64,000 bases of DNA, from assembly GCA_027923505.1 (NCBI GenBank), contig BROI01000001.1, positions 2,102,001-2,166,000 of the forward strand, read 5' to 3'. Shown piece by piece: positions 30,510 to 57,180 of the stretch. The notes beneath the pieces are model-generated. The model was not told where the DNA came from and ran no database searches. It was given only the letters and a program-made list of their open reading frames with translations. The stretch is from Mayamaea pseudoterrestris. Taxonomy: Eukaryota; Bacillariophyta; Bacillariophyceae; Sellaphorales; Sellaphoraceae. The position numbers were made by a program, and so were the translations under genes. Within the stretch, counting starts at the first letter, position 1; each line of letters begins with the position of its first letter.

Positions 30510-31080
30510 CACGTGCAATGTATCAACCAAGAACGGCAATGCAGCTTCATGATTGCTTTCAACTCATCATAGACTTTAAGTATCATCTGGTCGCAACTAT
30601 GGCTCCATAGCTGGGGCACATTAAACACATTCGCAGAGCGGGCAGAGCGGGGAGGTAGTAGAATCAAAGCTTTTTAGTGAGCAGTGGCATTCGCGCGCTT
30701 CGCGTACGCAAACACTGTCAAACATAGACAAAGTAAAATTGATACTGGCCTTCAAAGTAACAATTTGCTTATTGTAGCCAGAATCTAGGTGGATTGATGC
30801 CAACAATTCCTGTCTATTGGAACACAAGGAGAGGCGAGATATAGCAGTAATTGAGTATATAACTCTTTGAGAGCATACTCCTAAAGTAAACAATGTGTTT
30901 TGGGATAGCTAACATGGTCATTGTGAAGGGAAATTGCATGCGCGCAGCGTTTGACGTCATCTGCGTCGCAGTGGCAGCGCACGAATTAATGTCGTGAAGC
31001 ATGTTCGGATAGATCCTACGAACTGAATCAAACCAAGCGAGTCCAAGGTATCTCGCTAGTACAGGAGGTATGGAGGAAGA
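30510..31080. other. Transition from genic DNA to repeat domain
   Basis: The 3' flank of D2HGDH, with no gene, RNA or internal repeat recognised. It marks the left boundary of the repeat-rich block. Confidence 0.4.
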
Positions 31081-31442
31081 ACTGCCACAAAGCTCAAGGT
31101 ATAAGCATTTGAATAGGCATGGCAGCTGCTGGCTGAGACTGGTGACAAGTTATCACCAATCACATCGCAGTCCACGGAGACACCAGCCAGTACCTTATCT
31201 TCTAGCGAACCTGAAGAAAGGATGTAAGCACCATCTTGGCTTATTTTGGGCATACACATGGCTCAAGGCATGGGCATTTGAAAGGCATGGCAGCTGTTAC
31301 TGGCTGAGACTGGTGACAAGTTAACACCAATCACATTGCAGTTCACGTAGACACCGGCCACTTTTCTGTTGGGCACCTGAAATAAGGATGTTAGCACCAA
31401 TCTCACCGCGTGTGTGTCCCCAAGGATAGCCAGAGGAGAATT
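31081..31442. repeat. Repeat family A, left cluster (about 165-bp units)
   Basis: Two units plus a partial, marked by the shared string GGCTGAGACTGGTGACAAGT (at about 31131 and 31301) and by a following ATCAC-CA-TCACAT-GCAGT segment, the phrase GGGCATACACATGGCTCAAG, and CACCTGAAATAAGGATGTTA. The same family recurs at 53871-54830, on the other side of the central array. Confidence 0.8.
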
Positions 31443-31706
31443 CATGGAACAGACCTATTGGGGGGTAGTCTTTGAAGGCCTTACACTGGAGCAACCTGGA
31501 GCTTGTTTCTGTGTGGATCTTTGCCCTCCCAAACAACTGGTGCTACATGTGAGCCGGGAATGATTGTTATGCACCAATCTCACTGCATATAAGTCCCCAA
31601 GCATAGCCAGACCTGAAATCATGGGACAAGACTATTGGGGGTAGTCATTGAAGGCCACACACTGTAGCACCTTGTAGCTGATTACTGTGTGGATCTTTGC
31701 CCTCCA
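31443..31706. repeat. Repeat family B, left cluster (about 177-bp spacing)
   Basis: Two direct copies start at about 31443 and 31620. Each has an ATTGGGGG-TAGTC segment, a TTGAAGGCC segment and then TGTGTGGATCTTTGCCCTCC. The second copy ends exactly where the 162-bp array begins. A third related copy lies just right of the array at about 52685. Confidence 0.8.
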
Positions 31707-34700
31707 AAGTTGATCTATGTTCAAGCTCAGCGCAGTGGTCTGGCAGGCTCCAAGGCTACAGACAATCATTCCGGGAATTAAAAGATCAAACTCATGCAAC
31801 ATGAAAGTGATCTTGCAAGACTTGGGTTGCTCCTACAAGGAGCTCATGCATGCTGGAGCTATGATTTTCAAGCTCAGCGCAGTGGTCTGGCAGGCTCCAA
31901 GGCTACAGACAATCATTCCGGGAATCAAAAGATCAAACTCATGCAACATGAAAGTGACCTTGCAAGACTTGGCTGCTCCAACAAGGAGCTCATGCATGCT
32001 GTAATGCGCTCCACAAAGTTGATCTATGATCAAGCTCAGCACCTTGGTCAGACAAGCCCAAGGCTACAGATCCTCATTCCGGGAATCAAAAGATCAATCT
32101 CATGCAGCATGAAAGTAACCTTGCAAGACTTGGCTGCTGCAACAAGGAGCTCATGCATGCTGTAATGCGCTCCACAAAGTTGATCTATGATCAAGCTCAG
32201 CGCAGTGGTCTGGCAGGCTCCAAGGTTACAGACTATTATTCCGGGAATCAAAAGATCAAACTCATGCAACATGAAAGTGACCTTGCAAGACTTGGGTTGC
32301 TCCTACAAGGAGCTCATGCATGCTGTAATGCGCTCCACAAAGTTGATCTATGATCAAGCTCAGCTCAGCTCAGTGGTCTGGCAGGCTCCAAGGCTACAGA
32401 TCCTCATTCCAGGAATCAAAAGATCAATCTCATGCAACATGAAAGTGAACTTGCAAGATTTGGCTGCTCCAACAAGGAGCTCATGCATGCTGTAATGCGC
32501 TCCACAACGTTGATCTATGATCAAGCTCAGCGCAGTGGTCTGGCAGGCTCCAAGGCTACAGACAATCATTCCGGGAATCAAAAGATCAAACTCATGCAAC
32601 ATGAAAGTGACCTTGCAAGACTTGGGTTGCTCCTACAAGGAGCTCATGCATGCTGTAATGCGCTCCACAAAGTTGATCTATGATCAAGCTCAGCACCTTG
32701 GTCAGACAAGCCCAAGGCTACAGATCCTCATTCCGGGAATCAAAAGATCAATCTCATGCAACATGAAAGTGACCTTGCAAGACTTGGCTGCTCCAACAAG
32801 GAGCTCATGCATGCTGTAATGTGCTCCACAAAATTGATCTATGTTCAAGCTCAGCACCTTGGTCTGACAAGCCCAAGGCTACAGACAATCATTCCGGGAA
32901 TCATAAGATCAAACTCATGCAACATGAAAGTGACCTTGTAAGATTTGGCTGCTCCAACAAGGAGCTCGTGCATGCTGTAATGTGCTCCACAAACTTTATC
33001 TATGATCAAGCTCAGCGCAGTGGTCTGGCAGGCTCCAAGGCTACAGACAATCATTCCGGGAATCAAAGGATCAGTCTCATGCAACATGAAAGTGACCTTG
33101 TAAGACTTGGCTGCTCCAACAAGGAGCTCATGCATGCTGTTATGTGCTCCACAAAGTTGATCTATGATCAAGCTCAGCGCAGTGGTCTGGCAGGCTCCAA
33201 GGCCACAAACAATCATTCCGGGAATCAAAAGATCAAACTCATGCAACATGAAAGTGACCTTGCTGGCTGCTTCTACGAGGAGCTCATGCATGCTGTAATG
33301 TGCTCCACAAAGTTGATCTATGATCAAGCTCAGCTCAGCTCAGTGGTCTGGCAGGCTCCAAGGCTACAGACAATCATTCCGGGAAATAAAAGATCAATCT
33401 TGTGCAACATGAAAGTGACTTTGCAAAACTTAGGTTGCTCCTACAAGGAGCTCATGCATGCTGTAATGCGCTCCACAAAGTTGATCTATGATCAAGCTCA
33501 GCACCTTGGTCAGACAAGCCCAAGGCTACAGATCCTCATTCCGGGAATCAAAAGATCAATCTCATGCAACATGAAAGTGACCTTGCAAGACTTGGCTGCT
33601 CCAACAAGGAGCTCATGCATGCTGTAATGCGCTCCACATTGTTGATCTATGATCAAGCTCAGCGCAGTGGTCTGGCAGGCTCCAAGGCTACAGACAATCA
33701 TTCCGGGAATCAAAAGATCAAACTCATGCAACATGAAAGTGACCTTGCAAGACTTGGGTTGCTCCTACAAGGAGCTCATGCATGCTGTAATGCGCTCCAC
33801 AAAGTTGATCTATGATCAAGCTCAGCGCAGTGGTCTGGCAGGCTCCAAGGCTACAGACAATCATTCCGGGAATCAAAAGATCAATCTCATGCAACATGAA
33901 AGTGACCTTGCAAGACTTGGCTGCTCCAACAAGGAGCTCATGCATGCTGTAATGCGCTCCACAAAGTTGATCTATGATCAAGCTCAGCGCAGTGGTCTGG
34001 CAGGCTCCAAGGCTACAAACAATCATTCCGGGAATCAAAAGATCAATCTCATGCAACATGAAAGTGACCTTGCAAGACTTGGCTGCTCCAACAAGGAGCT
34101 CATGCATGCTGTAATGCGCTCCACAACGTTGATCTATGATCAAGCTCAGCGCAGTGGTCTGGCAGGCTCCAAGGCTACAGACAATCATTCCGGGAATCAA
34201 AAGATCAAACTCATGCAACATGGAAGTGACCTTGCAAGACTTGGCTGCTCCTACAAGGAGCTCATGCATGCTGTAATGCGCTCCACAAAGTTGATCTATG
34301 ATCAAGCTCAGCGCAGTGGTCTGGCAGGCTCCAAGGCTACAGACAATCATTCCGGGAATCAAAAGATCAATCTCATGCAACATGAAAGTGACCTTGCAAG
34401 ACTTAGATGCTCCAACAAGGAGCTCATGCATGCTGTAATGCGCTCCACAAAGTTGATCTATGATCAAGCTCAGCGCAGTGGTCTGGCAGGCTCCAAGGCT
34501 ACAGACAATCATTCCGGGAATCAAAAGATCAAACTCATGCAACATGGAAGTGACCTTGCAAGACTTGGCTGCTCCAACAAGGAGCTCATGCATGCTGTAA
34601 TGCGCTCCACAAAGTTGATCTATAATCAGATGGGCGGACGAGCCCAATGGCTACATCTAATAAAGATCAATTTCATGCAACATGAAAGTGACCTTGTAAG

Positions 34701-35090
34701 ACTTGGCTGCTCCAACAAGGAGCTCATGCATGCTGTAATGTGCTCCACAAAGTTTGATCTAAGATCAAGCTCAGCGCAGTGGTCTGGCAGGCTCCAAGGC
34801 TACAGACAACCATTCCGGGAATCAAAAGATCAAACTCATGCAACATGAAAGTGACCTTGCAAGACTTGGCTGCTCCAACAAGGAGCTCATGCATGCTGTA
34901 ATGCGCTCCACAAAGTTGATCTATGATCAAGCTCAGCGCAGTGGTCTGGCAGGCTCCAAGGCTACAGACAATCATTCCGGGAATCAAAAGATCCATCTCA
35001 TGCAACATGAAAGTGACCTTGCAAGACTTGGCTGCTCCTACAAGGAGCTCATGCATGCTGTAATGCGCTCCACAAAGTTGATCTATGATC

Positions 35091-36518
35091 AAGCTCAGCA
35101 CAGTGGTCTGGCAGGCTCCAAGGCTACAGACAATCATTCCGGGAATCAAAAGATCAAACTCATGCAACATGAAAGTGACCTTGCAAGACTTGGCTGCTCC
35201 TACAAGGAGCTCATGCATGCTGTAATGCGCTCCACAAAGTTGATCTATGATCAAGCTCAGCGCAGTGGTCTGGCAGGCTCCAAGGCTACAGACAATCATT
35301 CCGGGAATCAAAAGATCAATCTCATGCAACATGAAAGTGACCTTGCAAGACTTGGCTGCTCCAACAAGGAGCTCATGCATGCTGTAATGCGCTCCACAAA
35401 GTTGATCTATGATCAAGCTCAGTGCAGTGGTCTGGCAGGCTCCAAGGCTACAGACAATCATTCCGGGAATCAAAAGATCAACCTCATGCAACATGGAAGT
35501 GACCTTGCCAGACTTGGTTGCTCCAACAAGGAGCTCATGCATGCTGTAATGCGCTCCACAAAGTTGATCTATGATCAAGCTCAGCGCAGTGGTCTGGCAG
35601 GCTCCAAGGCTACAGACAATCATTCCGGGAATCAAAAGATCCATCTCAGGCAACATGGAAGTGACCTTGCAAGACTTGGCTGCTCCTACAAGGAGCTCAT
35701 GCATGCTGTAATGTGCTCCACAAAGTTGATCTATGATCAAGCTCAGCGCAGTGGTCTGGCAGGCTCCAAGGCTACAGACAATCATTCCGGGAAAAAAAGA
35801 TCAAAAGCTCAGCACAGTGGTCTGGCAGGCTCCAAGGCTACAGACAATCATTCCGGGAATCAAAAGATCAAACTCATGCAACATGAAAGTGACCTTGCAA
35901 GACTTGGCTGCTCCTACAAGGAGCTCATGCATGCTGTAATGCGCTCCACAAAGTTGATCTATGATCAAGCTCAGCGCAGTGGTCTGGCAGGCTCCAAGGC
36001 TACAGACAATCATTCCGGGAATCAAAAGATCAATCTCATGCAACATGAAAGTGACCTTGCAAGACTTGGCTGCTCCAACAAGGAGCTCATGCATGCTGTA
36101 ATGCGCTCCACAAAGTTGATCTATGATCAAGCTCAGTGCAGTGGTCTGGCAGGCTCCAAGGCTACAGACAATCATTCCGGGAATCAAAAGATCAACCTCA
36201 TGCAACATGGAAGTGACCTTGCCAGACTTGGTTGCTCCAACAAGGAGCTCATGCATGCTGTAATGCGCTCCACAAAGTTGATCTATGATCAAGCTCAGCG
36301 CAGTGGTCTGGCAGGCTCCAAGGCTACAGACAATCATTCCGGGAATCAAAAGATCCATCTCAGGCAACATGGAAGTGACCTTGCAAGACTTGGCTGCTCC
36401 TACAAGGAGCTCATGCATGCTGTAATGTGCTCCACAAAGTTGATCTATGATCAAGCTCAGCGCAGTGGTCTGGCAGGCTCCAAGGCTACAGACAATCATT
36501 CCGGGAAAAAAAGATCAA
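35091..36518. repeat. 714-bp tandem segmental duplication inside the 162-bp array
   Basis: 35091-35804 and 35805-36518 match with a constant 714-bp offset, including the rare variant GGGAAAAAAAGATC near the end of each copy. 714 is not a multiple of 162 (4 units plus 66), so the junction at 35804/35805 is out of register and leaves a truncated unit. Confidence 0.85.
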
Positions 36519-39500
36519 TCTTGTGCAACATGAAAGTGACTTTGCAAAACTTAGGTTGCTCCTACAAGGAGCTCATGCATGCTATAATGCACTCCACAAA
36601 GTTGATCTATGATCAAGCTCAGCGCAGTGGTCTGGCAGGCTCCAAGGCTACAGACAATCATTCCGGGAATCAAAAGATCCATCTCATGCAACATGAAAGT
36701 GACCTTGCAAGACTTGGCTGCTCCAACAAGGAGCTCATGCATGCTGTAATGCGCTCCACAAAGTTGATCTATGATCAAGCTCAGCGCAGTGGTCTGGCAG
36801 GCTCCAAGGCTACAGACAATCATTCCGGGAATCAAAAGATCAATCTCATGCAACATGGAAGTGACCTTGCAAGACTTGGCTGCTCCAACAAGGAGCTCAT
36901 GCATGCTGTAATGCGCTCCACAAAGTTGATCTATGATCAAGCTCAGCGCAGTGGTCTGGCAGGCTCCAAGGCTACAGACAATCATTCCGGGAATCAAAAG
37001 ATCCATCTCAGGCAACATGGAAGTGACCTTGCAAGACTTGGCTGCTCCTACAAGGAGCTCATGCATGCTGTAATGCGCTCCACAAAGTTGATCTATGATC
37101 AAGCTCAGTGCAGTGGTCTGGCAGGCTCCAAGGCTACAGACAATCATTCCGGGAATCAAAAGATCAACCTCATGCAACATGGAAGTGACCTTGCCAGACT
37201 TGGTTGCTCCAACAAGGAGCTCATGCATGCTGTAATGCGCTCCACAGAGTGTTCTATGATCAAACTCAGCATCTCGGTCTGACTAGCCCAAGGCTACAGA
37301 CAATCATTCCGGGAATCAAAAGATCAAACTCATGCAACATGAAAGTGACCTTGCAAGACTTGGCTGCTCCAACAAGGAGCTCATGCATGCTGTAATGCGC
37401 TCCACAAAGTTGATCTATGATCAAGCTCAGCGCAGTGGTCTGGCAGGCTCCAAGGCTACAGACAATCATTCCGGGAATCAAAAGATCAATCTCATGCAAC
37501 ATGGAAGTGACCTTGCAAGACTTGGGTGCTCCAACAAGGAGCTCATGCATGCTGTAATGCGCTCCACAAAGTTGATCTATGATCAAGCTCAGCGCAGTGG
37601 TCTGGCAGGCTCCAAGGCTACAGACAATCATTCCGGGAATCAAAAGATCAAACTCATGCAACATGAAAGTGACCTTGCAAGACTTGGCTGCTCCAACAAG
37701 GAGCTCATGCATGCTGTAATGCGCTCCACAAAGTTGATCTATGATCAAGCTCAGCGCAGTGGTCTGGCAGGCTCCAAGGCTACAGACAATCATTCCGGGA
37801 ATCAAAAGATCAAACTCATGCAACATGGAAGTGACCTTGCAAGACTTGGCTGCTCCAACAAGGAGCTCATGCATGCTGTAATGCGCTCCACAAAGTTGAT
37901 CTATGATCAAGCTCAGCGCAGTGGTCTGGCAGGCTCCAAGGCTACAGACAATCATTCCGGGAATCAAAAGATCCATCTCATGCAACATGAAAGTGACCTT
38001 GCAAGACTTGGCTGCTCCTACAAGGAGCTCATGCATGCTGTAATGCGCTCCACAAAGTTGATCTATGATCAAGCTCAGCGCAGTGGTCTGGCAGGCTCCA
38101 AGGCTACAGACAATCATTCCGGGAATCAAAAGATCAAACTCATGCAACATGGAAGTGACCTTGCAAGACTTGGGTTGCTCCTACAAGGAGCTCATGCATG
38201 CTGTAATGCGCTTTACAAAGTTGATCTATGATCAAGCTCAGCGCAGTGGTCTGGCAGGCTCCAAGGCTACAGACAATCATTCCGGGAATCAAAAGATCAA
38301 ACTCATGCAACATGAAAGTGACCTTGCAAGACTTGGCTGCTCCAACAAGGAGCTCATGCATGCTGTAATGCGCTCCACAAAGTTGATCTATGATCAAGCT
38401 CAGCGCAGTGGTCTGGCAGGCTCCAAGGCTACAGACAATCATTCCGGGAATCAAAAGATCAAACTCATGCAACATGAAAGTGACCTTGCAAGACTTGGCT
38501 GCTCCAACAAGGAGCTCATGCATGCTGTAATGCGCTCCACAAAGTTGATCTATGATCAAGCTCAGTGCAGTGGTCTGGCAGGCTCCAAGGCTACAGACAA
38601 TCATTCCGGGAATCAAAAGATCAATCTCATGCAACATGAAAGTGACCTTGCAAGACTTGGCTGCTCCAACAAGGAGCTCATGCATGCTGTAATGCGCTCC
38701 ACACCATTGATCTATAATCAAGCTCAGCATCTTGGTCTGGCAGGCTCCAAGGCTACAGACAATCATTCCGGGAATCAAAAGATCAAACTCATGCAACATG
38801 GAAGTGACCTTGCAAGACTTGGCTGCTCCTACAAGGAGCTCATGCATGCTGTAATGCGCTCCACAAAGTTGATCTATGATCAAGCTCAGCGCAGTGGTCT
38901 GGCAGGCTCCAAGGCTACAGACAATCATTCCGGGAATCAAAAGATCAAACTCATGCAACATGAAAGTGACCTTGCAAGACTTGGCTGCTCCAACAAGGAG
39001 CTCATGCATGCTGTAATGCGCTCCACAAAGTTGATCTATGATCAAGCTCAGCACCTTGGTCTGACAAGCCCAAGGCTACAGATCCTCATTCCGGGAATCA
39101 AAAGATCAAACTCATGCAACATGAAAGTGACCTTGCAAGACTTGGCTGCTCCAACAAGGAGCTCATGCATGCTGTAATGCGCTCCACAAAGTTTATCTAT
39201 GATCAAGCTCAGCATCTTGGTCTGGCAGGCTCCAAGGCTACAGACAATCATTCCGGGAATCAAAAGATCAAACTCATGCAACATGAAAGTGATCTTGCAA
39301 GACTTGGCTGCTTCTACGAGGAGCTCATGCATGCTGTAATGTGCTCCACAAAGTTGATCTATGATCAAGCTCAGCGCAGTGGTCTGGCAGGCTCCAAGGC
39401 TACAGACAATCATTCCGGGAAATAAAAGATCCATCTCATGCAACATGAAAGTGACCTTGCAAGACTTGGCTGCTCCAACAAGGAGCTCATGCATGCTGTA

Positions 39501-39779
39501 ATGCGCTCCAGAAAGTTAATCTATGAACAAGCTCAGTGCAGTGGTCTGGCAGGCTCCAAGGCTACAGACAATCATTCCGGGAATCAAAAGATCAACCTCA
39601 TGCAACATGGAAGTGACCTTGCCAGACTTGGTTGCTCCAACAAGGAGCTCATGCATGCTGTAATGCGCTCCACAAAGTTGATCTATGATCAAGCTCAGCG
39701 CAGTGGTCAGACAAGCCCAAGGCTACTGATCCTCATACCGGGAATCAAAAGATCAAACTCATGCAACATGAAAGTTTTC

Positions 39780-42700
39780 TTGCAAGACTTGGCTGCTCCA
39801 ACAAGGAGCTCATGCATGCTGTAATGCGCTCCACAAAGTGGATCTATGATCAAGCTCAGCGCAGTGGTCTGGCAGGCTCCAAGGCTACAGACAATCATTC
39901 CGGGAATCAAAAGATCAAACTCATGCAACATGGAAGTGACCTTGCAAGACTTGGCTGCTCCTACAAGGAGCTCATGCATGCTGTAATGCGCTCCACAAAG
40001 TTGATCTATGATCAAGCTCAGCGCAGTGGTCTGGCAGGCTCCAAGGCTACAGACAATCATTCCGGGAATCAAAAGATCAAACTCATGCAACATGAAAGTG
40101 ACCTTGCAAGACTTGGCTGCTCCTACAAGGAGCTCATGCATGCTGTAATGCGCTCCACAAAGTTGATCTATGATCAAGCTCAGCGCAGTGGTCTGGCAGG
40201 CTCCAAGGCTACAGACAATCATTCCGGGAATCAAAAGATCCATCTCAGGCAACATGGAAGTGACCTTGCAAGACTTGGCTGCTCCTACAAGGAGCTCATG
40301 CATGCTGTAATGCGCTCCACAAAGTTGATCTATGATCAAGCTCAGCGCAGTGGTCTGGCAGGCTCCAAGGCTACAGACAATCATTCCGGGAATCAAAAGA
40401 TCAATCTCATGCAACATGGAAGTGACCTTGCAAGACTTGGCTGCTCCAACAAGGAGCTCATGCATGCTGTAATGCGCTCCACAAAGTTGATCTATGATCA
40501 AGCTCAGCGCAGTGGTCTGGCAGGCTCCAAGGCTACAGACAATCATTCCGGGAATCAAAAGATCCATCTCATGCAACATGAAAGTGACCTTGCAAGACTT
40601 GGCTGCTCCAACAAGGAGCTCTTTGATGCTGTAATGTGCTCCACAAAGTTAATCTATGATCAAGCTGAGCGCCTTGGCCTGGCAGGCTCCATGGCTACAG
40701 ACAATCATTCCGGGAATCAAAAGATCCATCTCATGCAACATGAAAGTGACCTTGCAAGACTTGGCTGCTCCAACAAGGAGCTCATGCATGCTGTAATGCG
40801 CTCCACAAAGTTGATCTATGATCAAGCTCAGCGCAGTGGTCTGGCAGGCTCCAAGGCTACAGACAATCATTCCGGGAATCAAAAGATCAAACTCATGCAA
40901 CATGGAAGTGACCTTGCAAGACTTGGCTGCTCCAACAAGGAGCTCATGCATGCTGTAATGCGCTCCACAAAGTTGATCTATGATCAAGCTCAGCGCAGTG
41001 GTCTGGCAGGCTCCAAGGCTACAGACAATCATTCCGGGAATCAAAAGATCCATCTCAGGCAACATGAAAGTGACCTTGCAAGACTTGGCTGCGGCAACAA
41101 GGAGCTCATGCATGCTGTAATGTGCTCCACAAAGTTGATCTATGATCAAGCTCAGCGCAGTGGTCTGGCAGGCTCCAAGGCTACAGACAATCATTCCGGG
41201 AATCAAAAGATCAAACTCATGCAACATGGAAGTGACCTTGCAAGACTTGGCTGCTCCAACAAGGAGCTCATGCATGCTGTAATGCGCTCCACAAAGTTGA
41301 TCTATGATCAAGCTCAGCGCAGTGGTCTGGCAGGCTCCAAGGCTACAGACAATCATTCCGGGAATCAAAAGATCAATCTCATGCAACATGGAAGTGACCT
41401 TGCAAGACTTGGCTGCTCCAACAAGGAGCTCATGCATGCTGTAATGCGCTCCACAAAGTTGATCTATGATCAAGCTCAGCGCAGTGGTCTGGCAGGCTCC
41501 AAGGCTACAGACAATCATTCCGGGAATCAAAAGATCAAACTCATGCAACATGGAAGTGACCTTGCAAGACTTGGCTGCTCCAACAAGGAGCTCATGCATG
41601 CTGTAATGCGCTCCACCAAGTGGATCTATGATCAAGCTCAGCGCAGTGGTCTGGCAGGCTCCAAGGCTACAGACAATCATTCCGGGAATCAAAAGATCAA
41701 ACTCATGCAACATGGAAGTGACCTTGCAAGACTTGGCTGCTCCAACAAGGAGCTCATGCATGCTGTAATGCGCTCCACAAAGTTGATCTATGATCAAGCT
41801 CAGCGCAGTGGTCTGGCAGGCTCCAAGGCTACAGACAATCATTCCGGGAATCAAAAGATCAAACTCATGCAACATGGAAGTGACCTTGCAAGACTTGGCT
41901 GCTCCAACAAGGAGCTTATGCATGCTGTAATGCGCTCCACAAAGTTGATCTATGATCAAGCTCAGCGCAGTGGTCTGGCAGGCTCCAAGGCTACAGACAA
42001 TCATTCCGGGAATCAAAAGATCAAACTCATGCAACATGAAAGTGACCTTGCAAGACTTGGCTGCTGCAACAAGGAGCTCATGCATGCTGTAATGCGCTCC
42101 ACAAAGTTGATCTATGATCAAGCTCAGCGCAGTGGTCTGGCAGGCTCCAAGGCTACAGACAATCATTCCGGGAATCAAAAGATCAAACTCATGCAACATG
42201 GAAGTGACCTTGCAAGACTTGGCTGCTCCAACAAGGAGCTCATGCATGCTGTAATGCGCTCCACAAAGTTGATCTATGATCAAGCTCAGCGCAGTGGTCT
42301 GGCAGGCTCCAAGGCTACAGACAATCATTCCGGGAATCAAAAGATCCATCTCAGGCAACATGGAAGTGACCTTGCAAGACTTGGCTGCTCCTACAAGGAG
42401 CTCATGCATGCTGTAATGCGCTCCACCAAGTGGATCTATGATCAAGCTCAGCGCAGTGGTCTGGCAGGCTCCAAGGCTACAGACAATCATTCCGGGAATC
42501 AAAAGATCAAACTCATGCAACATGGAAGTGACCTTGCAAGACTTGGCTGCTCCAACAAGGAGCTCATGCATGCTGTAATGCGCTCCACAAAGTGGATCTA
42601 TGATCAAGCTCAGCGCAGTGGTCTGGCAGGCTCCAAGGCTACAGACAATCATTCCGGGAATCAAAAGATCAAACTCATGCAACATGGAAGTGACCTTGCA

Positions 42701-45700
42701 AGACTTGGCTGCTCCAACAAGGAGCTCATGCATGCTGTAATGCGCTCCACAAAGTTGATCTATGATCAAGCTCAGCGCAGTGGTCTGGCAGGCTCCAAGG
42801 CTACAGACAATCATTCCGGGAATCAAAAGATCAAACTCATGCAACATGGAAGTGACCTTGCAAGACTTGGCTGCTCCAACAAGGAGCTCATGCATGCTGT
42901 AATGCGCTCCACCAAGTTGATCTATGATCAAGCTCAGCGCAGTGGTCTGGCAGGCTCCAAGGCTACAGACAATCATTCCGGGAATCAAAAGATCCATCTC
43001 AGGCAATATGAAGGTGACCTTGCAAGACTTGGCTGCTCCAACAAGGAGCTTATGCATGCTGTAATGCGCTCCACAAAGTTGATCTATGATCAAGCTCAGC
43101 GCAGTGGTCTGGCAGGCTCCAAGGCTACAGACAATCATTCCGGGAATCAAAAGATCAAACTCATGCAACATGGAAGTGACCTTGCAAGACTTGGCTGCTC
43201 CAACAAGGAGCTCATGCATGCTGTAATGCGCTCCACCAAGTGGATCTATGATCAAGCTCAGCGCAGTGGTCTGGCAGGCTCCAAGGCTACAGACAATCAT
43301 TCCGGGAATCAAAAGATCAAACTCATGCAACATGGAAGTGACCTTGCAAGACTTGGCTGCTCCAACAAGGAGCTCATGCATGCTGTAATGCGCTCCACAA
43401 AGTTGATCTATGATCAAGCTCAGCGCAGTGGTCTGGCAGGCTCCAAGGCTACAGACAATCATTCCGGGAATCAAAAGATCAAACTCATGCAACATGGAAG
43501 TGACCTTGCAAGACTTGGCTGCTCCTACAAGGAGCTCATGCATGCTGTAATGCGCTCCACCAAGTGGATCTATGATCAAGCTCAGCGCAGTGGTCTGGCA
43601 GGCTCCAAGGCTACAGACAATCATTCCGGGAATCAAAAGATCAAACTCATGCAACATGGAAGTGACCTTGCAAGACTTGGGTGCTCCAACAAGGAGCTCA
43701 TGCATGCTGTAATGCGCTCCACCAAGTGGATCTATGATCAAGCTCAGCGCAGTGGTCTGGCAGGCTCCAAGGCTACAGACAATCATTCCGGGAATCAAAA
43801 GATCAAACTCATGCAACATGAAAGTGACCTTGCAAGACTTGGCTGCTGCAACAAGGAGCTCATGCATGCTGTAATGCGCTCCACAAAGTTGATCTATGAT
43901 CAAGCTCAGCGCAGTGGTCTGGCAGGCTCCAAGGCTACAGACAATCATTCCGGGAATCAAAAGATCAAACTCATGCAACATGGAAGTGACCTTGCAAGAC
44001 TTGGCTGCTCCTACAAGGAGCTTATGCATGCTGTAATGCGCTCCACAAAGTTGATCTATGATCAAGCTCAGCGCAGTGGTCTGGCAGGCTCCAAGGCTAC
44101 AGACAATCATTCCGGGAATCAAAAGATCAAACTCATGCAACATGAAAGTGACCTTGCAAGACTTGGCTTGCAAGACTTGGCTGCTCCAACAAGGAGCTCA
44201 TGCATGCTGTAATGCGCTCCACAAAGTGGATCTATGATCAAGCTCAGCGCAGTGGTCTGGCAGGCTCCAAGGCTACAGACAATCATTCCGGGAATCAAAA
44301 GATCAAACTCATGCAACATGGAAGTGACCTTGCAAGACTTGGCTGCTCCTACAAGGAGCTCATGCATGCTGTAATGCGCTCCACAAAGTTGATCTATGAT
44401 CAAGCTCAGCGCAGTGGTCTGGCAGGCTCCAAGGCTACAGACAATCATTCCGGGAATCAAAAGATCAAACTCATGCAACATGAAAGTGACCTTGCAAGAC
44501 TTGGCTGCTCCTACAAGGAGCTCATGCATGCTGTAATGCGCTCCACAAAGTTGATCTATGATCAAGCTCAGCGCAGTGGTCTGGCAGGCTCCAAGGCTAC
44601 AGACAATCATTCCGGGAATCAAAAGATCCATCTCAGGCAACATGGAAGTGACCTTGCAAGACTTGGCTGCTCCTACAAGGAGCTCATGCATGCTGTAATG
44701 CGCTCCACAAAGTTGATCTATGATCAAGCTCAGCGCAGTGGTCTGGCAGGCTCCAAGGCTACAGACAATCATTCCGGGAATCAAAAGATCAATCTCATGC
44801 AACATGGAAGTGACCTTGCAAGACTTGGCTGCTCCAACAAGGAGCTCATGCATGCTGTAATGCGCTCCACAAAGTTGATCTATGATCAAGCTCAGCGCAG
44901 TGGTCTGGCAGGCTCCAAGGCTACAGACAATCATTCCGGGAATCAAAAGATCCATCTCATGCAACATGAAAGTGACCTTGCAAGACTTGGCTGCTCCAAC
45001 AAGGAGCTCTTTGATGCTGTAATGTGCTCCACAAAGTTAATCTATGATCAAGCTGAGCGCCTTGGCCTGGCAGGCTCCATGGCTACAGACAATCATTCCG
45101 GGAATCAAAAGATCCATCTCATGCAACATGAAAGTGACCTTGCAAGACTTGGCTGCTCCAACAAGGAGCTCATGCATGCTGTAATGCGCTCCACAAAGTT
45201 GATCTATGATCAAGCTCAGCGCAGTGGTCTGGCAGGCTCCAAGGCTACAGACAATCATTCCGGGAATCAAAAGATCAAACTCATGCAACATGGAAGTGAC
45301 CTTGCAAGACTTGGCTGCTCCAACAAGGAGCTCATGCATGCTGTAATGCGCTCCACAAAGTTGATCTATGATCAAGCTCAGCGCAGTGGTCTGGCAGGCT
45401 CCAAGGCTACAGACAATCATTCCGGGAATCAAAAGATCCATCTCAGGCAACATGAAAGTGACCTTGCAAGACTTGGCTGCGGCAACAAGGAGCTCATGCA
45501 TGCTGTAATGTGCTCCACAAAGTTGATCTATGATCAAGCTCAGCGCAGTGGTCTGGCAGGCTCCAAGGCTACAGACAATCATTCCGGGAATCAAAAGATC
45601 AAACTCATGCAACATGGAAGTGACCTTGCAAGACTTGGCTGCTCCAACAAGGAGCTCATGCATGCTGTAATGCGCTCCACAAAGTTGATCTATGATCAAG

Positions 45701-48555
45701 CTCAGCGCAGTGGTCTGGCAGGCTCCAAGGCTACAGACAATCATTCCGGGAATCAAAAGATCAATCTCATGCAACATGGAAGTGACCTTGCAAGACTTGG
45801 CTGCTCCAACAAGGAGCTCATGCATGCTGTAATGCGCTCCACAAAGTTGATCTATGATCAAGCTCAGCGCAGTGGTCTGGCAGGCTCCAAGGCTACAGAC
45901 AATCATTCCGGGAATCAAAAGATCAAACTCATGCAACATGGAAGTGACCTTGCAAGACTTGGCTGCTCCAACAAGGAGCTCATGCATGCTGTAATGCGCT
46001 CCACCAAGTGGATCTATGATCAAGCTCAGCGCAGTGGTCTGGCAGGCTCCAAGGCTACAGACAATCATTCCGGGAATCAAAAGATCAAACTCATGCAACA
46101 TGGAAGTGACCTTGCAAGACTTGGCTGCTCCAACAAGGAGCTCATGCATGCTGTAATGCGCTCCACAAAGTTGATCTATGATCAAGCTCAGCGCAGTGGT
46201 CTGGCAGGCTCCAAGGCTACAGACAATCATTCCGGGAATCAAAAGATCAAACTCATGCAACATGGAAGTGACCTTGCAAGACTTGGCTGCTCCAACAAGG
46301 AGCTTATGCATGCTGTAATGCGCTCCACAAAGTTGATCTATGATCAAGCTCAGCGCAGTGGTCTGGCAGGCTCCAAGGCTACAGACAATCATTCCGGGAA
46401 TCAAAAGATCAAACTCATGCAACATGAAAGTGACCTTGCAAGACTTGGCTGCTGCAACAAGGAGCTCATGCATGCTGTAATGCGCTCCACAAAGTTGATC
46501 TATGATCAAGCTCAGCGCAGTGGTCTGGCAGGCTCCAAGGCTACAGACAATCATTCCGGGAATCAAAAGATCAAACTCATGCAACATGGAAGTGACCTTG
46601 CAAGACTTGGCTGCTCCAACAAGGAGCTCATGCATGCTGTAATGCGCTCCACAAAGTTGATCTATGATCAAGCTCAGCGCAGTGGTCTGGCAGGCTCCAA
46701 GGCTACAGACAATCATTCCGGGAATCAAAAGATCCATCTCAGGCAACATGGAAGTGACCTTGCAAGACTTGGCTGCTCCTACAAGGAGCTCATGCATGCT
46801 GTAATGCGCTCCACCAAGTGGATCTATGATCAAGCTCAGCGCAGTGGTCTGGCAGGCTCCAAGGCTACAGACAATCATTCCGGGAATCAAAAGATCAAAC
46901 TCATGCAACATGGAAGTGACCTTGCAAGACTTGGCTGCTCCAACAAGGAGCTCATGCATGCTGTAATGCGCTCCACAAAGTGGATCTATGATCAAGCTCA
47001 GCGCAGTGGTCTGGCAGGCTCCAAGGCTACAGACAATCATTCCGGGAATCAAAAGATCAAACTCATGCAACATGGAAGTGACCTTGCAAGACTTGGCTGC
47101 TCCAACAAGGAGCTCATGCATGCTGTAATGCGCTCCACAAAGTTGATCTATGATCAAGCTCAGCGCAGTGGTCTGGCAGGCTCCAAGGCTACAGACAATC
47201 ATTCCGGGAATCAAAAGATCAAACTCATGCAACATGGAAGTGACCTTGCAAGACTTGGCTGCTCCAACAAGGAGCTCATGCATGCTGTAATGCGCTCCAC
47301 CAAGTTGATCTATGATCAAGCTCAGCGCAGTGGTCTGGCAGGCTCCAAGGCTACAGACAATCATTCCGGGAATCAAAAGATCCATCTCAGGCAATATGAA
47401 GGTGACCTTGCAAGACTTGGCTGCTCCAACAAGGAGCTTATGCATGCTGTAATGCGCTCCACAAAGTTGATCTATGATCAAGCTCAGCGCAGTGGTCTGG
47501 CAGGCTCCAAGGCTACAGACAATCATTCCGGGAATCAAAAGATCAAACTCATGCAACATGGAAGTGACCTTGCAAGACTTGGCTGCTCCAACAAGGAGCT
47601 CATGCATGCTGTAATGCGCTCCACCAAGTGGATCTATGATCAAGCTCAGCGCAGTGGTCTGGCAGGCTCCAAGGCTACAGACAATCATTCCGGGAATCAA
47701 AAGATCAAACTCATGCAACATGGAAGTGACCTTGCAAGACTTGGCTGCTCCAACAAGGAGCTCATGCATGCTGTAATGCGCTCCACAAAGTTGATCTATG
47801 ATCAAGCTCAGCGCAGTGGTCTGGCAGGCTCCAAGGCTACAGACAATCATTCCGGGAATCAAAAGATCAAACTCATGCAACATGGAAGTGACCTTGCAAG
47901 ACTTGGCTGCTCCTACAAGGAGCTCATGCATGCTGTAATGCGCTCCACCAAGTGGATCTATGATCAAGCTCAGCGCAGTGGTCTGGCAGGCTCCAAGGCT
48001 ACAGACAATCATTCCGGGAATCAAAAGATCAAACTCATGCAACATGGAAGTGACCTTGCAAGACTTGGGTGCTCCAACAAGGAGCTCATGCATGCTGTAA
48101 TGCGCTCCACCAAGTGGATCTATGATCAAGCTCAGCGCAGTGGTCTGGCAGGCTCCAAGGCTACAGACAATCATTCCGGGAATCAAAAGATCAAACTCAT
48201 GCAACATGAAAGTGACCTTGCAAGACTTGGCTGCTGCAACAAGGAGCTCATGCATGCTGTAATGCGCTCCACAAAGTTGATCTATGATCAAGCTCAGCGC
48301 AGTGGTCTGGCAGGCTCCAAGGCTACAGACAATCATTCCGGGAATCAAAAGATCAAACTCATGCAACATGGAAGTGACCTTGCAAGACTTGGCTGCTCCT
48401 ACAAGGAGCTTATGCATGCTGTAATGCGCTCCACAAAGTTGATCTATGATCAAGCTCAGCGCAGTGGTCTGGCAGGCTCCAAGGCTACAGACAATCATTC
48501 CGGGAATCAAAAGATCAAACTCATGCAACATGAAAGTGACCTTGCAAGACTTGGC
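39780..48555. repeat. 4388-bp tandem segmental duplication inside the 162-bp array
   Basis: 39780-44167 and 44168-48555 match with a constant offset of 4388 bp (27 units plus 14 bp). Shared rare markers prove common origin: the GGAGCTCTTTGATGCTG variant (40615 and 45003), the GGCAACAAGG variant (41093 and 45481), the AGGCAATATGAAGGTGACC variant, and a silent GAGCTT variant. The extra 14 bp is a repeated TTGCAAGACTTGGC at the junction. Confidence 0.88.
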
Positions 48556-51242
48556 TGCTGCAACAAGGAGCTCATGCATGCTGTAATGCGCTCCACAAAG
48601 TTGATCTATGATCAAGCTCAGCGCAGTGGTCTGGCAGGCTCCAAGGCTACAGACAATCATTCCGGGAATCAAAAGATCAAACTCATGCAACATGGAAGTG
48701 ACCTTGCAAGACTTGGCTGCTCCTACAAGGAGCTCATGCATGCTGTAATGCGCTCCACAAAGTGGATCTATGATCAAGCTCAGCGCAGTGGTCTGGCAGG
48801 CTCCAAGGCTACAGACAATCATTCCGGGAATCAAAAGATCAAACTCATGCAACATGGAAGTGACCTTGCAAGACTTGGCTGCTCCTACAAGGAGCTCATG
48901 CATGCTGTAATGCGCTCCACAAAGTGGATCTATGATCAAGCTCAGCGCAGTGGTCTGGCAGGCTCCAAGGCTACAGACAATCATTCCGGGAATCAAAAGA
49001 TCAAACTCATGCAACATGGAAGTGACCTTGCAAGACTTGGCTGCTCCTACAAGGAGCTTATGCATGCTGTAATGCGCTCCACAAAGTGGATCTATGATCA
49101 AGCTCAGCGCAGTGGTCTGGCAGGCTCCAAGGCTACAGACAATCATTCCGGGAATCAAAAGATCAAACTCATGCAACATGAAAGTGACCTTGCAAGACTT
49201 GGCTGCTGCAACAAGGAGCTCATGCATGCTGTAATGCGCTCCACAAAGTTGATCTATGATCAAGCTCAGCGCAGTGGTCTGGCAGGCTCCAAGGCTACAG
49301 ACAATCATTCCGGGAATCAAAAGATCAAACTCATGCAACATGGAAGTGACCTTGCAAGACTTGGCTGCTGCAACAAGGAGCTCATGCATGCTGTAATGCG
49401 CTCCACAAAGTTGATCTATGATCAAGCTCAGCGCAGTGGTCTGGCAGGCTCCAAGGCTACAGACAATTATTCTGGGAATCAAAAGATCAAACTCATGCAA
49501 CATGGAAGTGACCTTGCAAGACTTGGCTGCTGCAACAAGGAGCTCATGCATGCTGTAATGCGCTCCACAAAGTTGATCTATGATCAAGCTCAGCGCAGTG
49601 GTCTGGCAGGCTCCAAGGCTACAGACAATCATTCCGGGAATCAAAAGATCAAACTCATGCAACATGGAAGTGACCTTGCAAGACTTGGCTGCTCCAACAA
49701 GGAGCTCATGCATGCTGTAATGCGCTCCACAAAGTTGATCTATGATCAAGCTCAGCGCAGTGGTATGGCAGGCTCCAAGGCTACAGACAATCATTCCGGG
49801 AATCAAAAGATCCATCTCAGGCAACATGGAAGTGACCTTGCAAGACTTGGCTGCTCCTACAAGGAGCTCATGCATGCTGTAATGCGCTCCACAAAGTTGA
49901 TCTATGATCAAGCTCAGCGCAGTGGTCTGGCAGGCTCCAAGGCTACAGACAATCATTCCGGGAATCAAAAGATCAATCTCATGCAACATGGAAGTGACCT
50001 TGCAAGACTTGGCTGCTCCTACAAGGAGCTTATGCATGCTGTAATGCTCCACAAAGTGATCTTGATCTATGATCAAGCTCACGCAGTGGTCTGGCAGGCT
50101 CCAAGGCTACAGACAATCATTCCGGAAATCAAAAGATCAAACTCATGCAACATGAAAGTGACCTTGCAAGACTTGGCTGCCACAACCAGGAGCTAATGCA
50201 TGCTGTAATGCGCTCCACAAAGTTGATCTATGATCAAGCTCAGCGCAGTGGTCTGGCAGGCTCCAAGGCTACAGACAATCATTCCGGGAATCAAAAGATC
50301 AAACTCATGCAACATGGAAGTGACCTTGCAAGACTTGGCTGCTCCAACAAGGAGCTTATGCATGCTGTAATGCGCTCCACAAAGTTGATCTATGATCAAG
50401 CTCAGCGCAGTGGTCTGGCAGGCTCCAAGGCTACAGACAATCATTCCGGGAATCAAAAGATCAATCTCATGCAACATGAAAGTGACCTTGCAAGACTTGG
50501 CTGCTCCTACAAGGAGCTGCACGTAATGTAATCGCTCCACCAAAGTGGATCAATGATCAAGCTCAGCGCAGTGGTCTGGCAGGCTCCAAGGCTACAGACA
50601 ATCATTCCGGGAATCAAAAGATCAAACTCATGCAACATGGAAGTGACCTTGCAAGACTTGGCTGCTCCAACAAGGAGCTCATGCATGCTGTAATGCGCTC
50701 CACAAAGTTGATCTATGATCAAGCTCAGCGCAGTGGTCTGACAAGCCCCAAGGCTACTCAGACACATTCGGATCAAAAGCATCAAACTCATGCAACATGG
50801 GAATTAGTGACCTTGCAAGACTTGGCTGCTCCAACAAGGAGCTCATGCATGCTGTAATGCGCTCCACAAAGTTGATCTATGATCAAGCTCAGCGCAGTGG
50901 TCTGGCAGGCTCCAAGGCTACAGACAATCATTCCGGGAATCAAAAGATCAAACTCATGCAACATGAAAGTGACCTTGCAAGACTTGGCTGCTCCAACAAG
51001 GAGCGCCCCTGGAAAGCGATGCATGATCGAGCTCAGCGGGCGCTCCGACAAAGTCAAGATCAAACAACAAACAAGCTGGCTAGACAACAGGGTTGGCAAG
51101 CAGCAGCAAGAGGTGGAGGCATGGATGGGGTCGGCAGCTCGGTCTGGTGCGTCCTACAGACGATCATTCGGGGAATCAAAAGATCAATCTCATAAGGCAA
51201 CTATGAAAGTGACCTTGCAAGACTTGGCTGCTCCAAGCATCA

Positions 51243-52684
51243 GCGAGAGCTCATGCATGCTGTAATGTGCTCCACAAAGTTGATCTATGATCAAGCTCAG
51301 CGCAGTGGTCTGGCAGGCTCCAAGGCTACAGACAATCATTCCGGGAATCAAAAGATCAATCTCATGCAACATGAAAGTGACCTTGCAAGACTTGGGTTGC
51401 TCCTACAAGGAGCTCATGCATGCTGTAATGCGCTCCACAAAGTTGATCTATGATCAAGCTCAGCACCTTGGTCAGACAAGCCCAAGGCAACAGATACTCA
51501 TTCCGGGAATCAAAAGATCAATCTCATGAAACATGAAAGTGACCTTGTAAGATTTGGCTGCTCCAACAAGGAGCTCATGCATGCTGTAATGCGCTCCACA
51601 AAGTTTATCTATGATCAAGCTCAGCACCTTGGTCGGACAAGCCCAAGGCTACCGACAATCATTCCGGGAATAAAAAGATCAAACTCATGCAACATGAAAG
51701 TGACCTTGCAAGACTTTGGTTGCTCCAACAAGGAGCTCATGCATGCTGTAATGCGCTCCACAAAGTTGATCTATGATCAAGCTCAGCACCTTGGTCAGAC
51801 AAGCCCAAGGCTACAGATCCTCATTCCGGGAATCAAAAGATCAATCTCATGCAACATGAAAGTGACCTTGCAAGACTTGGCTGCTCCAACAAGGAGCTCA
51901 TGCATGCTGTAATGCGCTCCACACCGTTGATCTATGATCAAGCTCAGCGCAGTGGTCTGGCAGGCGAGAGCTCATGCATGCTGTAATGTGCTCCACAAAG
52001 TTGATCTATGATCAAGCTCAGCGCAGTGGTCTGGCAGGCTCCAAGGCTACAGACAATCATTCCGGGAATCAAAAGATCAATCTCATGCAACATGAAAGTG
52101 ACCTTGCAAGACTTGGGTTGCTCCTACAAGGAGCTCATGCATGCTGTAATGCGCTCCACAAAGTTGATCTATGATCAAGCTCAGCACCTTGGTCAGACAA
52201 GCCCAAGGCAACAGATACTCATTCCGGGAATCAAAAGATCAATCTCATGAAACATGAAAGTGACCTTGTAAGATTTGGCTGCTCCAACAAGGAGCTCATG
52301 CATGCTGTAATGCGCTCCACAAAGTTTATCTATGATCAAGCTCAGCACCTTGGTCGGACAAGCCCAAGGCTACCGACAATCATTCCGGGAATAAAAAGAT
52401 CAAACTCATGCAACATGAAAGTGACCTTGCAAGACTTTGGTTGCTCCAACAAGGAGCTCATGCATGCTGTAATGCGCTCCACAAAGTTGATCTATGATCA
52501 AGCTCAGCACCTTGGTCAGACAAGCCCAAGGCTACAGATCCTCATTCCGGGAATCAAAAGATCAATCTCATGCAACATGAAAGTGACCTTGCAAGACTTG
52601 GCTGCTCCAACAAGGAGCTCATGCATGCTGTAATGCGCTCCACACCGTTGATCTATGATCAAGCTCAGCGCAGTAGTCTGGCAG
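51243..52684. repeat. 721-bp tandem segmental duplication at the right end of the array
   Basis: 51243-51963 and 51964-52684 correspond at a constant 721-bp offset (4 units plus 73 bp). Both contain the same subtype order and the same private changes, such as AGACTTTGGTTGCTCC and CTCATGAAACATG. The second copy runs directly into family B sequence. Confidence 0.85.
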
Positions 52685-52825
52685 GCACACTGTAGCAAAA
52701 TGGAGATGGTTACTGTGTGGATCTTTGCCCTCCCAAACAACTGATGCTACACGTGAGCTGGAAATGATTGCTATGCACCAAGCTCACCGCATGTGTCCGC
52801 AACCATAGCCAGAACAGAATTTATG
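52685..52825. repeat. Repeat family B, right copy
   Basis: Contains CACTGTAGCA, ACTGTGTGGATCTTTGCCCT, a TGATGCTACACGTGAGCTGG segment and AACCATAGCCAGA. All match, in the same order and orientation, the family B copies left of the array. Confidence 0.75.
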
Positions 52826-53290
52826 AAATTAAGAATCTAAAACTTGCAGTGTTGGCCATACCCACAGTGGAGGCCATACCCATGGTGTCAGTCTCCAGGC
52901 AATCCCATTTGCATTATTTGAAACTCTGCCCTCTGTCAATGGCATACCCTGGACAGGTTTTGCGTGACCCATTGGGTTGTTGGGTGGCCAGGGCATGGGG
53001 CATCTGACAGGTAAGAATCTAAAACTTGTGGTGTTAGCCATAGCCACAGCGGAGGCCGTATAAGAATCTAAAACTTGTGGTGTTAGCCATAGCCACAGCG
53101 GAGGCCGTATCCATTGTGTCAGCCTCCAGGCAGTCCTTTTTGCGCCATTTGAGACTCTGCACCTGTCAATGACATACCCTGGACAGGTCTTGCCTGACTC
53201 ATTGGGTTGTAGGGTGGCCAGGGCATGTGGCATTTGACAGGTAAAAATCTAAAACTTATGGTGTTGGCCATACCCACAGTGGAGGTCGTA
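52826..53290. repeat. Repeat family D (about 180-bp units)
   Basis: Units begin with AAGAATCTAAAACTTG (at about 52832, 53013, 53062, and a variant at 53246). They continue through GTGTTGGCCATACCCACAG, a TCTCCAGGCA segment and CATACCCTGGACAGG, to GGTGGCCAGGGCATG. No coding potential was recognised. Confidence 0.75.
53012..53109. repeat. Perfect 49-bp tandem duplication
   Basis: 53012-53060 and 53061-53109 are identical, duplicating the start of a family D unit. Perfect identity suggests a recent event. Confidence 0.85.
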
Positions 53291-53870
53291 CGACTTGTTG
53301 GATCTACTAGTGGTGCACCTCAAGTGGCAAGTGAGACTTCCAAAATGGCCTGCAGACCCCATAATACAACCAATATGGACTTGAACAACGAATGGGAGTC
53401 ATAGACTTGTCCATTTGGGTGTAGAAGCCATTACTATGCCCTGAGACTCTGCACATTCAACCAATGGTTGAATGTGCCAGCCCTGCTCCCTTTTTGGCTG
53501 CAGGGATCATCAGCATTTCCTGCTGAGCCCTCCAATTTCTTTCAAATCATGCTTGTTGTAAATGATGGGCCATAAGTTGGTCAGTTGCACCTCAGCATCC
53601 ATCACCATGTATGCCACAGTGAGACTGAACAGATCCAACAACTTGATGGATCTTGTAGTGGTGCACCTCAAGTGGCAAGTGAGACTTCCACAATGGCCAG
53701 CAGACCCCATAATACAGCCAATATGGTCTTGAACAATGAATGGGACTCATAGACATGTCCATTTGGGCGTGGAAGCCATCACCATGGCCTGAGACTCCGC
53801 ACATTCAACCAATTGGCTGCAGGGATCATCAGCATTGCCCACTGAGCCCTCCAATTTCTTACAAATCATG
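53291..53870. repeat. Repeat family E (338-bp direct repeat, two copies)
   Basis: Two copies at an offset of about 338 bp share GTGCACCTCAAGTGGCAAGT, CAGACCCCATAATAC, CATAGAC-TGTCCATTTGGG, GAGACTC-GCACATTCAACC, GGGATCATCAGCATT and GAGCCCTCCAATTTCTT. Between them is a short unshared segment (about 53515-53635). No gene was recognised. Confidence 0.75.
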
Positions 53871-54830
53871 TTAAATGACAGCATCTGCTGGCTGAGACTG
53901 GTGACAAATTGTCAGCAGTCACATTGCAGTCTACCAAGGGACCAGCAAGGCAATCCATCTTGTAGCGCACCTGAAATAAGGATGTTAGCACCATTCTGGC
54001 TTGATTTGGGCATACACAAGGCTATGGGCATTTGAAAATGATGGCATCTGCTGGCTGAGACTGGTGACAAGTTGTCAGCAGTCACATTGCAGTCCTCAAA
54101 GACACTAGCCCATCAACTTGTAGCGCACCTGAAATAAGGATGTTAGAACCATTCTGGCTTGATTTGGGCATACACAAGGCTATGGGCATTTGAAAATGAT
54201 GGCATCTGCTGGCTGAGACTGGTGACAAGTTGTCAGCAGTCACATTGCAGTCCTCAAAGACACTAGCCCATCAACTTGTAGCGCACCTGAAATAAGGATG
54301 TTAGAACCATTCTGGCTTGATTTGGGCATACACATGGCTATGGGCATTTGAAAATGATGGCATCTGCTGGCTGAGACTGGTGACAAGTTGTCAGCAGTCA
54401 CATTGCAGTCCTCATAGACACTAGCCCATCAACTTGTAGCGCACCTGAAATAAGGATGTTAGAACCATTCTGGCTTGAATTGGGCATACACATGGCTCAA
54501 GGTATGGGCATTTGAAAATCACGGCATCTGCTGGCTGAGACTGGTGACAAGTTGTCACCAATCACATTGCAGTCTACCAAGGGACCAGCCAGGCAATCCA
54601 TCTTGTAGCGCACCTGAAATATGGATGTTAGCACCATTCTGGCTTGATTTGGGCATACACATGGCTCAAGGTATGGGCATTTGAAAGTCAGGGCATCTGC
54701 TGGCTGAGATTGGTGAGAACTTCCCACCAGTCACATTGCAGTCCTCGACACACTAGCCCGTCAATCCATCTTGTAGCGCACCTGAAATTAGGATTTTAGC
54801 ACCATTCTGGCTTGATTTGGACACGGCTCT
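53871..54830. repeat. Repeat family A, right cluster (six units, 158-169 bp)
   Basis: CTGCTGGCTGAGACTGGTGA recurs at about 53885, 54048, 54206, 54364, 54528 and 54697. Two successive spacings are exactly 158 bp and those units are nearly identical. One unit (54538-54554) carries a perfect GGTGACA-AGT-TGTCACC dyad that is degenerate in the others. Same family and orientation as the cluster at 31081-31442. From 54831 to 55085 no further repeat is seen; that stretch is the promoter side of the next gene. Confidence 0.85.
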
Positions 54831-56325: not shown

Positions 56326-57180
56326 TCAACTGGGAGTGACAGCCGACTTGTACGTCGTGGTGAGCTCCGGATTCTCCGCCTTGCTCTTGACGAGTCCAAT
56401 CGGCTTGAGCACCGCCATAATGACTGGCTTGACCATATCCTCCGTCTTTTGCATGGCACCAAAGACAATCTTGACAATCGTCTCAATGGCGGGGTTGAGA
56501 ATATTGTCATCCACCTTGGTCAAGTTGCTCGTGACAGCACCATCCAAATCGGACATGCTAGATCCAACGACCGACACCATCTTGCCGGCAACGCCTTCGT
56601 CAATCCCGAGAAAGGGCTTGAAGACCATGACAGACTTGCCCCAGCTCCAAACATCCTTGGCGGTCACGTACGCCTTTTCGGCAGGGTTGATTTCGTAGCT
56701 AGTGCGAGCGGGAGAAGTCGGAGAGGAAGTCATGTTGGAGTCGTGGAATTGAGGGCTTGGAGGAGAGTCTGATTCAAAGGATCTGGAAAAGGTCAACGCG
56801 TCTTTCATGGGAGAATCAAAATTAGAGTGTGAGAAATTCATCGAGAGAGGATCCGCAATCGCCGTCATGAAATCCTCTTGGTCAGCCGCCGTGACAAAGT
56901 CGTCCACTGTATTCGTCGCCGTTGATCTTGCTCGCATGGTCAAGTAGAGCTGCTCCGAGAGAACCGTGGCCGAAACCGTTTGCGTATCAATTTCGCCACC
57001 GAAAAAGAATTCCTCGCCGCTACTCTTGGGAGAAATCGGAGGATGGAGATCCTCAACGTTCATTCCAGGAGTATTACTGCCGGCGCGAGGCGTCGGATTG
57101 TCCGTGTAAGGACTGCTGACGGCAACGCTGGTAGTCGTAGCGTGGACTTCAATCTGCGATCCAACGAGGCTCCGTCTCAT
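56326..57180 (-). CDS. Hypothetical protein with helical C-terminal domain
   Basis: A single-exon frame of 284 aa from ATG 57180. The first 170 residues are Ser/Thr/Pro-rich and likely disordered, with many SP/TP sites (SPKSS, SPPSPQF, SPTSPARTS) that could be phosphorylated. The last 110 residues are a run of hydrophobic helices (AYVTAKDVWSWGKSVMVFKPFLGI, NPAIETIVKIVFGAMQKTEDMVKPVIMAVLKPIGLV) of amphipathic rather than transmembrane character. I recognise no family. It converges on the pseudouridine synthase gene, with 229 bp between stops. Confidence 0.6.
   Translation of the reverse strand: MRRSLVGSQIEVHATTTSVAVSSPYTDNPTPRAGSNTPGMNVEDLHPPISPKSSGEEFFFGGEIDTQTVSATVLSEQLYLTMRARSTATNTVDDFVTAADQEDFMTAIADPLSMNFSHSNFDSPMKDALTFSRSFESDSPPSPQFHDSNMTSSPTSPARTSYEINPAEKAYVTAKDVWSWGKSVMVFKPFLGIDEGVAGKMVSVVGSSMSDLDGAVTSNLTKVDDNILNPAIETIVKIVFGAMQKTEDMVKPVIMAVLKPIGLVKSKAENPELTTTYKSAVTPS

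Follow-up and report, generated by a model that had tools for sequence, protein, structure and literature searches.

Centromere arrays of the alpha-satellite type combine a unit of near-nucleosomal length with a homogenised core and older, diverged layers outside; they are of megabase size, lie in a gene-poor setting and carry CENH3.

Among stramenopiles, a satellite with gene-rich surroundings is described in the oomycete Phytophthora parasitica. According to the portion of that account used here, PpSat2 has a unit of 143 bp and forms head-to-tail arrays of 18-78 units (8-11 where scaffold ends cut the arrays), whose unit sequences are mostly unique or low-copy (PMC7290008). For diatoms, the cited passages report repeat blocks of up to ~30 kb in Cyclotella cryptica, which are methylated mainly at CpG and alternate with unmethylated gene-rich DNA (PMC5124317), and isolated CG-methylated islands in P. 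tricornutum and other diatoms (PMC9998398). The stramenopile centromeres covered by such excerpts are short and AT-rich in P. tricornutum, transposon-rich in P. sojae (PMC7082073) and in Ectocarpus (PMC11541908), and low in GC with no gain of repeats in Pelagomonas (PMC9481584).

The 64-kb stretch of DNA analysed here (the window) contains a 162-bp satellite array which, in our reading, very probably is non-coding and belongs to a silenced chromatin island that has long been CG-methylated and has active-type genes on both sides. With the alpha-satellite type it shares the near-nucleosomal unit, the homogenised core and the older outer layers, whereas it measures only ~21 kb and lies among genes instead of forming a megabase array in gene-poor DNA. 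It resembles PpSat2 as a head-to-tail satellite of similar unit size embedded among genes; compared by description, PpSat2 differs in being GC-rich (~58%) and in that several of its arrays are interrupted by an insert of ~2.7-2.9 kb, as stated in the part of the source cited (PMC7290008). The CpG map of the window has the same on/off shape as the hypermethylated repeat islands of diatoms. In the cited passages those islands were demonstrated by bisulfite sequencing and concern transposons and repeats in general (PMC5124317, PMC9998398), whereas here the repeats are satellites and base composition is what methylation is deduced from.

Structure of the 162-bp array

TRF was applied to the window and the main array was cut into units at one conserved anchor. 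The array and its internal features are the following:

31705-52684 (+), main array of ~130 head-to-tail units of 162 bp, ~21 kb
39779-44168 (+), copy 1 of a tandem duplication inside the main array, identical 4390-bp run at offset 4388
44167-48556 (+), copy 2 of the same duplication, identical 4390-bp run at offset 4388
51005-51163 (+), degenerate interruption, gap between two 162-bp TRF rows

With the single period, TRF placed the array at 31868-51004 (117.8 copies, score 29019), and with the triple period at 31705-51004 (score 32321); further 162-bp rows were obtained at 51154-51948 and 51968-52669. These scores leave no room for chance. The 130 anchors define 129 intervals, 97 of which are exactly 162 bp long, while 14 measure 161 bp and six 163 bp. 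Orientation is uniform, with no reverse-orientation 14-mers of the unit inside the array, and a search with the 14-mers on both strands found none elsewhere in the 64-kb window. The array contains no N. The stretch 51000-51170 gave no match elsewhere in the window at E 1e-4 with the settings used.

The earlier note had described about 130 head-to-tail copies over some 21 kb with a homogenised middle and diverging margins, and both descriptions were confirmed by these measurements. Taken in bins of ten units, mean pairwise identity is 0.903 in the first bin and 0.938-0.978 in the ten inner ones; the last full bin has 0.913 and the final bin, which holds two units, 0.932. This analysis used 122 of the 130 pieces, the eight pieces outside 155-170 bp being left out, and these 122 full units comprise 62 distinct sequences. 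As in satellite DNA, many similar units within the ~100-500 bp range stand head to tail, and the edges are more diverged than the middle, as under concerted evolution.

An exact duplication lies inside the array. Its offset of 4388 bp corresponds to 27 units plus 14 bp; the register thus shifts by 14 bp at the joint, which produces one unit of 176 bp, and the two copies overlap there by 2 bp. Since falsely overlapped repeats would be expected to keep the register, we take the tandem duplication to be genuine. Given such an exact duplication, the length of the array is to be taken with caution.

Further order within the array was sought at several levels. Ungapped identity between units declines steadily with lag and has no peak at lag 3. 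This speaks weakly, as indels blur the measure, against a regular trimer as higher-order repeat, for which the slightly higher triple-period TRF score could be cited. At the edges of the array, 161-bp and 163-bp units adjoin, perhaps the trace of an older dimer. Three dyads of the unit, ATTCCGGGAAT, GAGCTCATGCATGC and TTGATCTATGATC, were considered as functional elements and discarded: of the 162 windows, 22, 13 and 53, respectively, vary less, so that the conservation of the dyads does not clearly exceed that of windows taken by chance. A 10-bp dinucleotide period computed on the repeated consensus is uninformative, as unit repetition makes its own peaks.

Relatives were searched among plasmids, viral contigs and bacterial and archaeal genomes, a coverage which says little on eukaryotes. 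A 487-bp query had no match among plasmids in distant mode, and a search of viral contigs with a 378-residue translation gave two stretches that matched a pattern, none of which was confirmed. An exact 21-base pattern occurred 0 times in viral contigs and 0 times in bacterial and archaeal genomes. Rfam gave no match at gathering level, and a tRNA scan with a bacterial-code scanner gave none. The literature searches, which do not work by sequence, turned up no description of the 162-bp unit.

Gene surroundings and flanking repeat layers

On the left, the main array is separated by 1.2 kb from an ORF for a FAD-oxidase ending at 30509; on the right, an ORF for a pseudouridine synthase starts at 55086, 2.4 kb away. 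The array had been noted before as lying between single-copy genes at these distances. The embedding among genes and the distances are right, but the gaps themselves hold other tandem families, so that ~0.58 kb separates the left ORF from the first repeats and ~0.26 kb the last repeats from the right ORF. The following features were delimited on both sides:

31086-31403 (+), ~2 diverged units of a 158-bp family, outer left layer, 77-80% identity over ~300 bp with several sites within 53864-54823
31404-31710 (+), ~1.8 units of a ~176-bp family, inner left layer, 81% self-match at 176-bp offset
52673-52825 (+), unit of the ~176-bp family, inner right layer, 82% match to 31465-31623
52830-53290 (+), two units of a 230-bp family, from TRF
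53283-53870 (+), ~1.7 units of a ~348-bp family, self-match (76%) between the stretches from 53631 and from 53283
53873-54820 (+), 5.8 units of the 158-bp family, outer right layer, from TRF and the match to the left copies
58311-64000 (+), second, unrelated array of at least 33 units of 171/172 bp, from TRF, running off the window

Together with the main array, the tandem families span ~31086-54823. Since the 158-bp family lies outside and the ~176-bp family inside on both sides of the array, with the 230-bp and ~348-bp pairs added on the right, the block is layered, and the most homogeneous array, in its middle, appears to be the youngest. The flanking tandem families are older than the main array. 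In a local alignment, a segment of ~50 bp from the ~176-bp family recurs in direct orientation on either side of the main array (31657-31708 and 52686-52737). It looks as if the array had opened the ~176-bp family, or as if two ~176-bp units had stayed on either side.

The second array starts 5.6 kb to the right of the main array and probably extends well past the end of the window. Its units match their consensus at 82-95% up to 61504 and at 93-99% from 61678 on; the main and second arrays thus both decay toward the gene island between them. This island is 3.5 kb wide and includes the pseudouridine synthase. Two further ORFs of the island, 56326-57180 (-) and 57550-58179 (-), had no Pfam match at E 1.

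A shared origin of the six repeat units was considered and rejected on shuffling tests, the ~176-bp family (period 176 bp) being represented by a 178-bp slice here and in the CpG counts per unit. For 13 of the 15 pairs, at least 6 of 100 shuffles reached the score of the pair. The lowest counts were those of the 158/230 pair (2/100), the 162/230 and 172/348 pairs (6/100 each) and the 158/348 pair (11/100). There may be a weak relationship between the 158-bp and the 230-bp unit, in which case the six units would not be fully independent.

The region to the left (1-30509) is a compact gene region. Its ORFs matched FAD-linked oxidase, FKBP, a proteasome subunit, a transketolase-type (E1-beta-like) protein, carboxyl transferase and an Rpb7-type protein, and GH99 below its cut-off. 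A few ORFs have short starts with an A-F or similar motif which, judged by eye, we take to be presequence-like. Together with the density of genes, these starts hint that the DNA may come from a photosynthetic stramenopile, for instance a diatom. A 71-bp tandem pair at 16498-16631 in this region gives no sign of spread.

CpG depletion of the repeats

The ratio of observed to expected CpG, which is 1.07 for the gene DNA left of the array (30.5 kb), amounts to 0.30 in the main array, 0.22 in the left layer, 0.19 in the right layer and 0.28 in the second array. All of the 61 500-bp windows in 1-30500 have a ratio of at least 0.76, and all 58 tested inside the repeats one of at most 0.43. Border windows, kept outside this tally, are intermediate (0.37 at 31001, 0.46 at 54501 and 0.64 at 58001). 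The change coincides with the repeat edges, and housekeeping genes follow within a few hundred bases. As non-coding controls, four single-copy spacers nearby gave ratios of 0.91, 0.94, 1.52 and 1.02. Because an array is one unit repeated, CpG was also counted per unit. Six repeat units pooled contain 14 CpG against 72.3 expected (Poisson 6e-17, with the units treated as independent) and 251 TpG+CpA against 155.8 expected.

The TpG/CpA ratio is raised to 1.64, 1.54, 1.68 and 1.49 in the main array, left layer, right layer and second array, respectively, against 1.19 in the genes, while TpA is not raised (0.34-0.84 in the repeats against 0.61 in the genes). This combination fits the decay of methylated cytosine and not repeat-induced point mutation as in fungi (RIP), which was rejected: RIP entails a loss of CpA and a gain of TpA, whereas the main array has 1.64 for CpA and 0.34 for TpA against 1.19 and 0.61 in the genes. 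As in a methylated heterochromatin island, CpG loss and TpG/CpA gain are limited to the repeats. Such a pattern is the usual scar of long-term CG methylation; as evidence it is indirect and a historic average.

Variants among the units were also considered. In the 162-bp units, C>T or G>A variants occur at all six C/G positions within CpG and at 29 of the 72 others (Fisher 0.006 (0.0063), occurrence ratio 4.0); a single change at position 10, common to many edge units, accounts for 16 of the 35 CpG transitions, and these are not independent. The same test was not significant in the 172-bp array (3/4 vs 28/75, P 0.16) and gave nothing in the seven units of the 158-bp family (0/2 vs 12/74). Nearly all copies of the 162-bp unit share the same three CpG.

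Alternative readings and origin of the array

The length of 162 bp is divisible by three and both strands of the array hold long open frames, with ORFs of 1998 and 1483 aa on the + strand and 1681 and 1174 aa on the - strand, so that the array had to be considered as a possible exon for a very long protein made of 54-residue repeats. Among the 97 exact 162-bp units, the open + frame is interrupted by a stop in only one and open in 96, and one - frame is open in 91. Such frames follow from a length that is a multiple of three together with one stop-free frame per strand, and the variants speak against coding: the synonymous share of distinct variants is 0.240 in the + open frame against a neutral expectation of 0.242, and 0.231 in the - open frame against 0.248. 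No purifying selection on the unit was detected in any of the six frames (97 exact 162-bp units), and the 14 intervals of 161 bp and six of 163 bp disrupt the reading frame. The ORFs of the array matched many unrelated protein families, but 32 of the 33 rows had no stretch passing alone and the sole exception had an E of 0.86; these matches look like sums over repeated weak matches. With a neutral synonymous share in six frames and frame-breaking units, the array behaves as non-coding, like satellite DNA, and we regard the exon as extremely improbable. It is also very unlikely that the array or its length was created by assembly. A 100% identical tandem duplication of 4388 bp is the kind of thing that repeat assembly can create, but its joint, with a 14-bp shift and a 2-bp overlap, is not what would be expected from a mis-overlap of repeats, and the number of distinct sequences (62 among 122 full units), the diverged ends passing into other repeats and the lack of N all argue for a genuine array.

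A centromere was one of the possibilities raised by the earlier note. Read in this way, the array would be the centromere or core pericentromere of its chromosome, its unit length would follow nucleosome spacing, and the older satellites would have been displaced to the outside. This would account for the homogenised core with its diverged margins and older layers, for the near-nucleosomal unit sizes of four families (158, 162, 172 and ~176 bp) and for the strong scar of silencing in the block; moreover, tandem repeats are given as the usual centromere DNA of animals and plants, with no fixed length or GC, in the passage cited (PMC4053949). The setting, however, argues in the other direction. 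Instead of one large array in gene-poor DNA, the 64 kb viewed shows an array of only ~21 kb with genes at most 0.6 kb from either end of the block, another array of comparable unit size but unrelated sequence 5.6 kb away, a 3.5-kb gene island separating the two arrays, and at least three more tandem families in the flanks. A GC trough is absent: GC is 0.483 in the main array and 0.497 in the 30-kb gene region on its left, and the lowest 500-bp value of the array (0.454) lies above that of the whole window (0.384), which falls in the gene region. If the DNA belongs to a stramenopile, the centromeres described for its relatives, as far as the cited excerpts go, differ in kind from this array. 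The centromere is therefore not supported, and we consider it an unlikely reading. The other proposal made before, a lineage-specific satellite or heterochromatin island, gains support from the homogenisation gradient, the missing coding signal and the confinement of CpG loss to the repeats.

For the silenced satellite island, which is the reading we prefer, the following course is proposed. Unequal exchange and segmental tandem duplication would amplify and homogenise the middle of the array, and cytosine (CG) methylation would keep the block silent and turn CpG into TpG/CpA. As nearly all copies have their three CpG in common, the unit seems to have been poor in CpG by the time it spread or while it was spreading. 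Probably the 162-bp seed had this composition already when spreading, and probably it arose within DNA that was already methylated. The genes on both sides would lie outside the methylated domain and would escape silencing because this domain ends at the repeat edges. The array would carry no evident cellular function beyond being silenced. A more far-reaching version, which we think unlikely, is a self-renewing methylated compartment: a fixed site would stay CG-methylated, and unrelated satellites (158, 162, 172 and ~176 bp) would arise there successively from CpG-decayed DNA, each splitting the older ones, with a unit length set by nucleosome spacing.

The array is real, well bounded and ordinary in kind, and it overturns nothing known. 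What appears to be new here is the CpG depletion, which points to a sharply bounded satellite island, silenced and methylated, among genes. If this reading is right, sequence alone gives a base-level map of silenced versus open chromatin, and the nested satellites of different age are a small natural record of satellite birth, homogenisation and decay beside genes.
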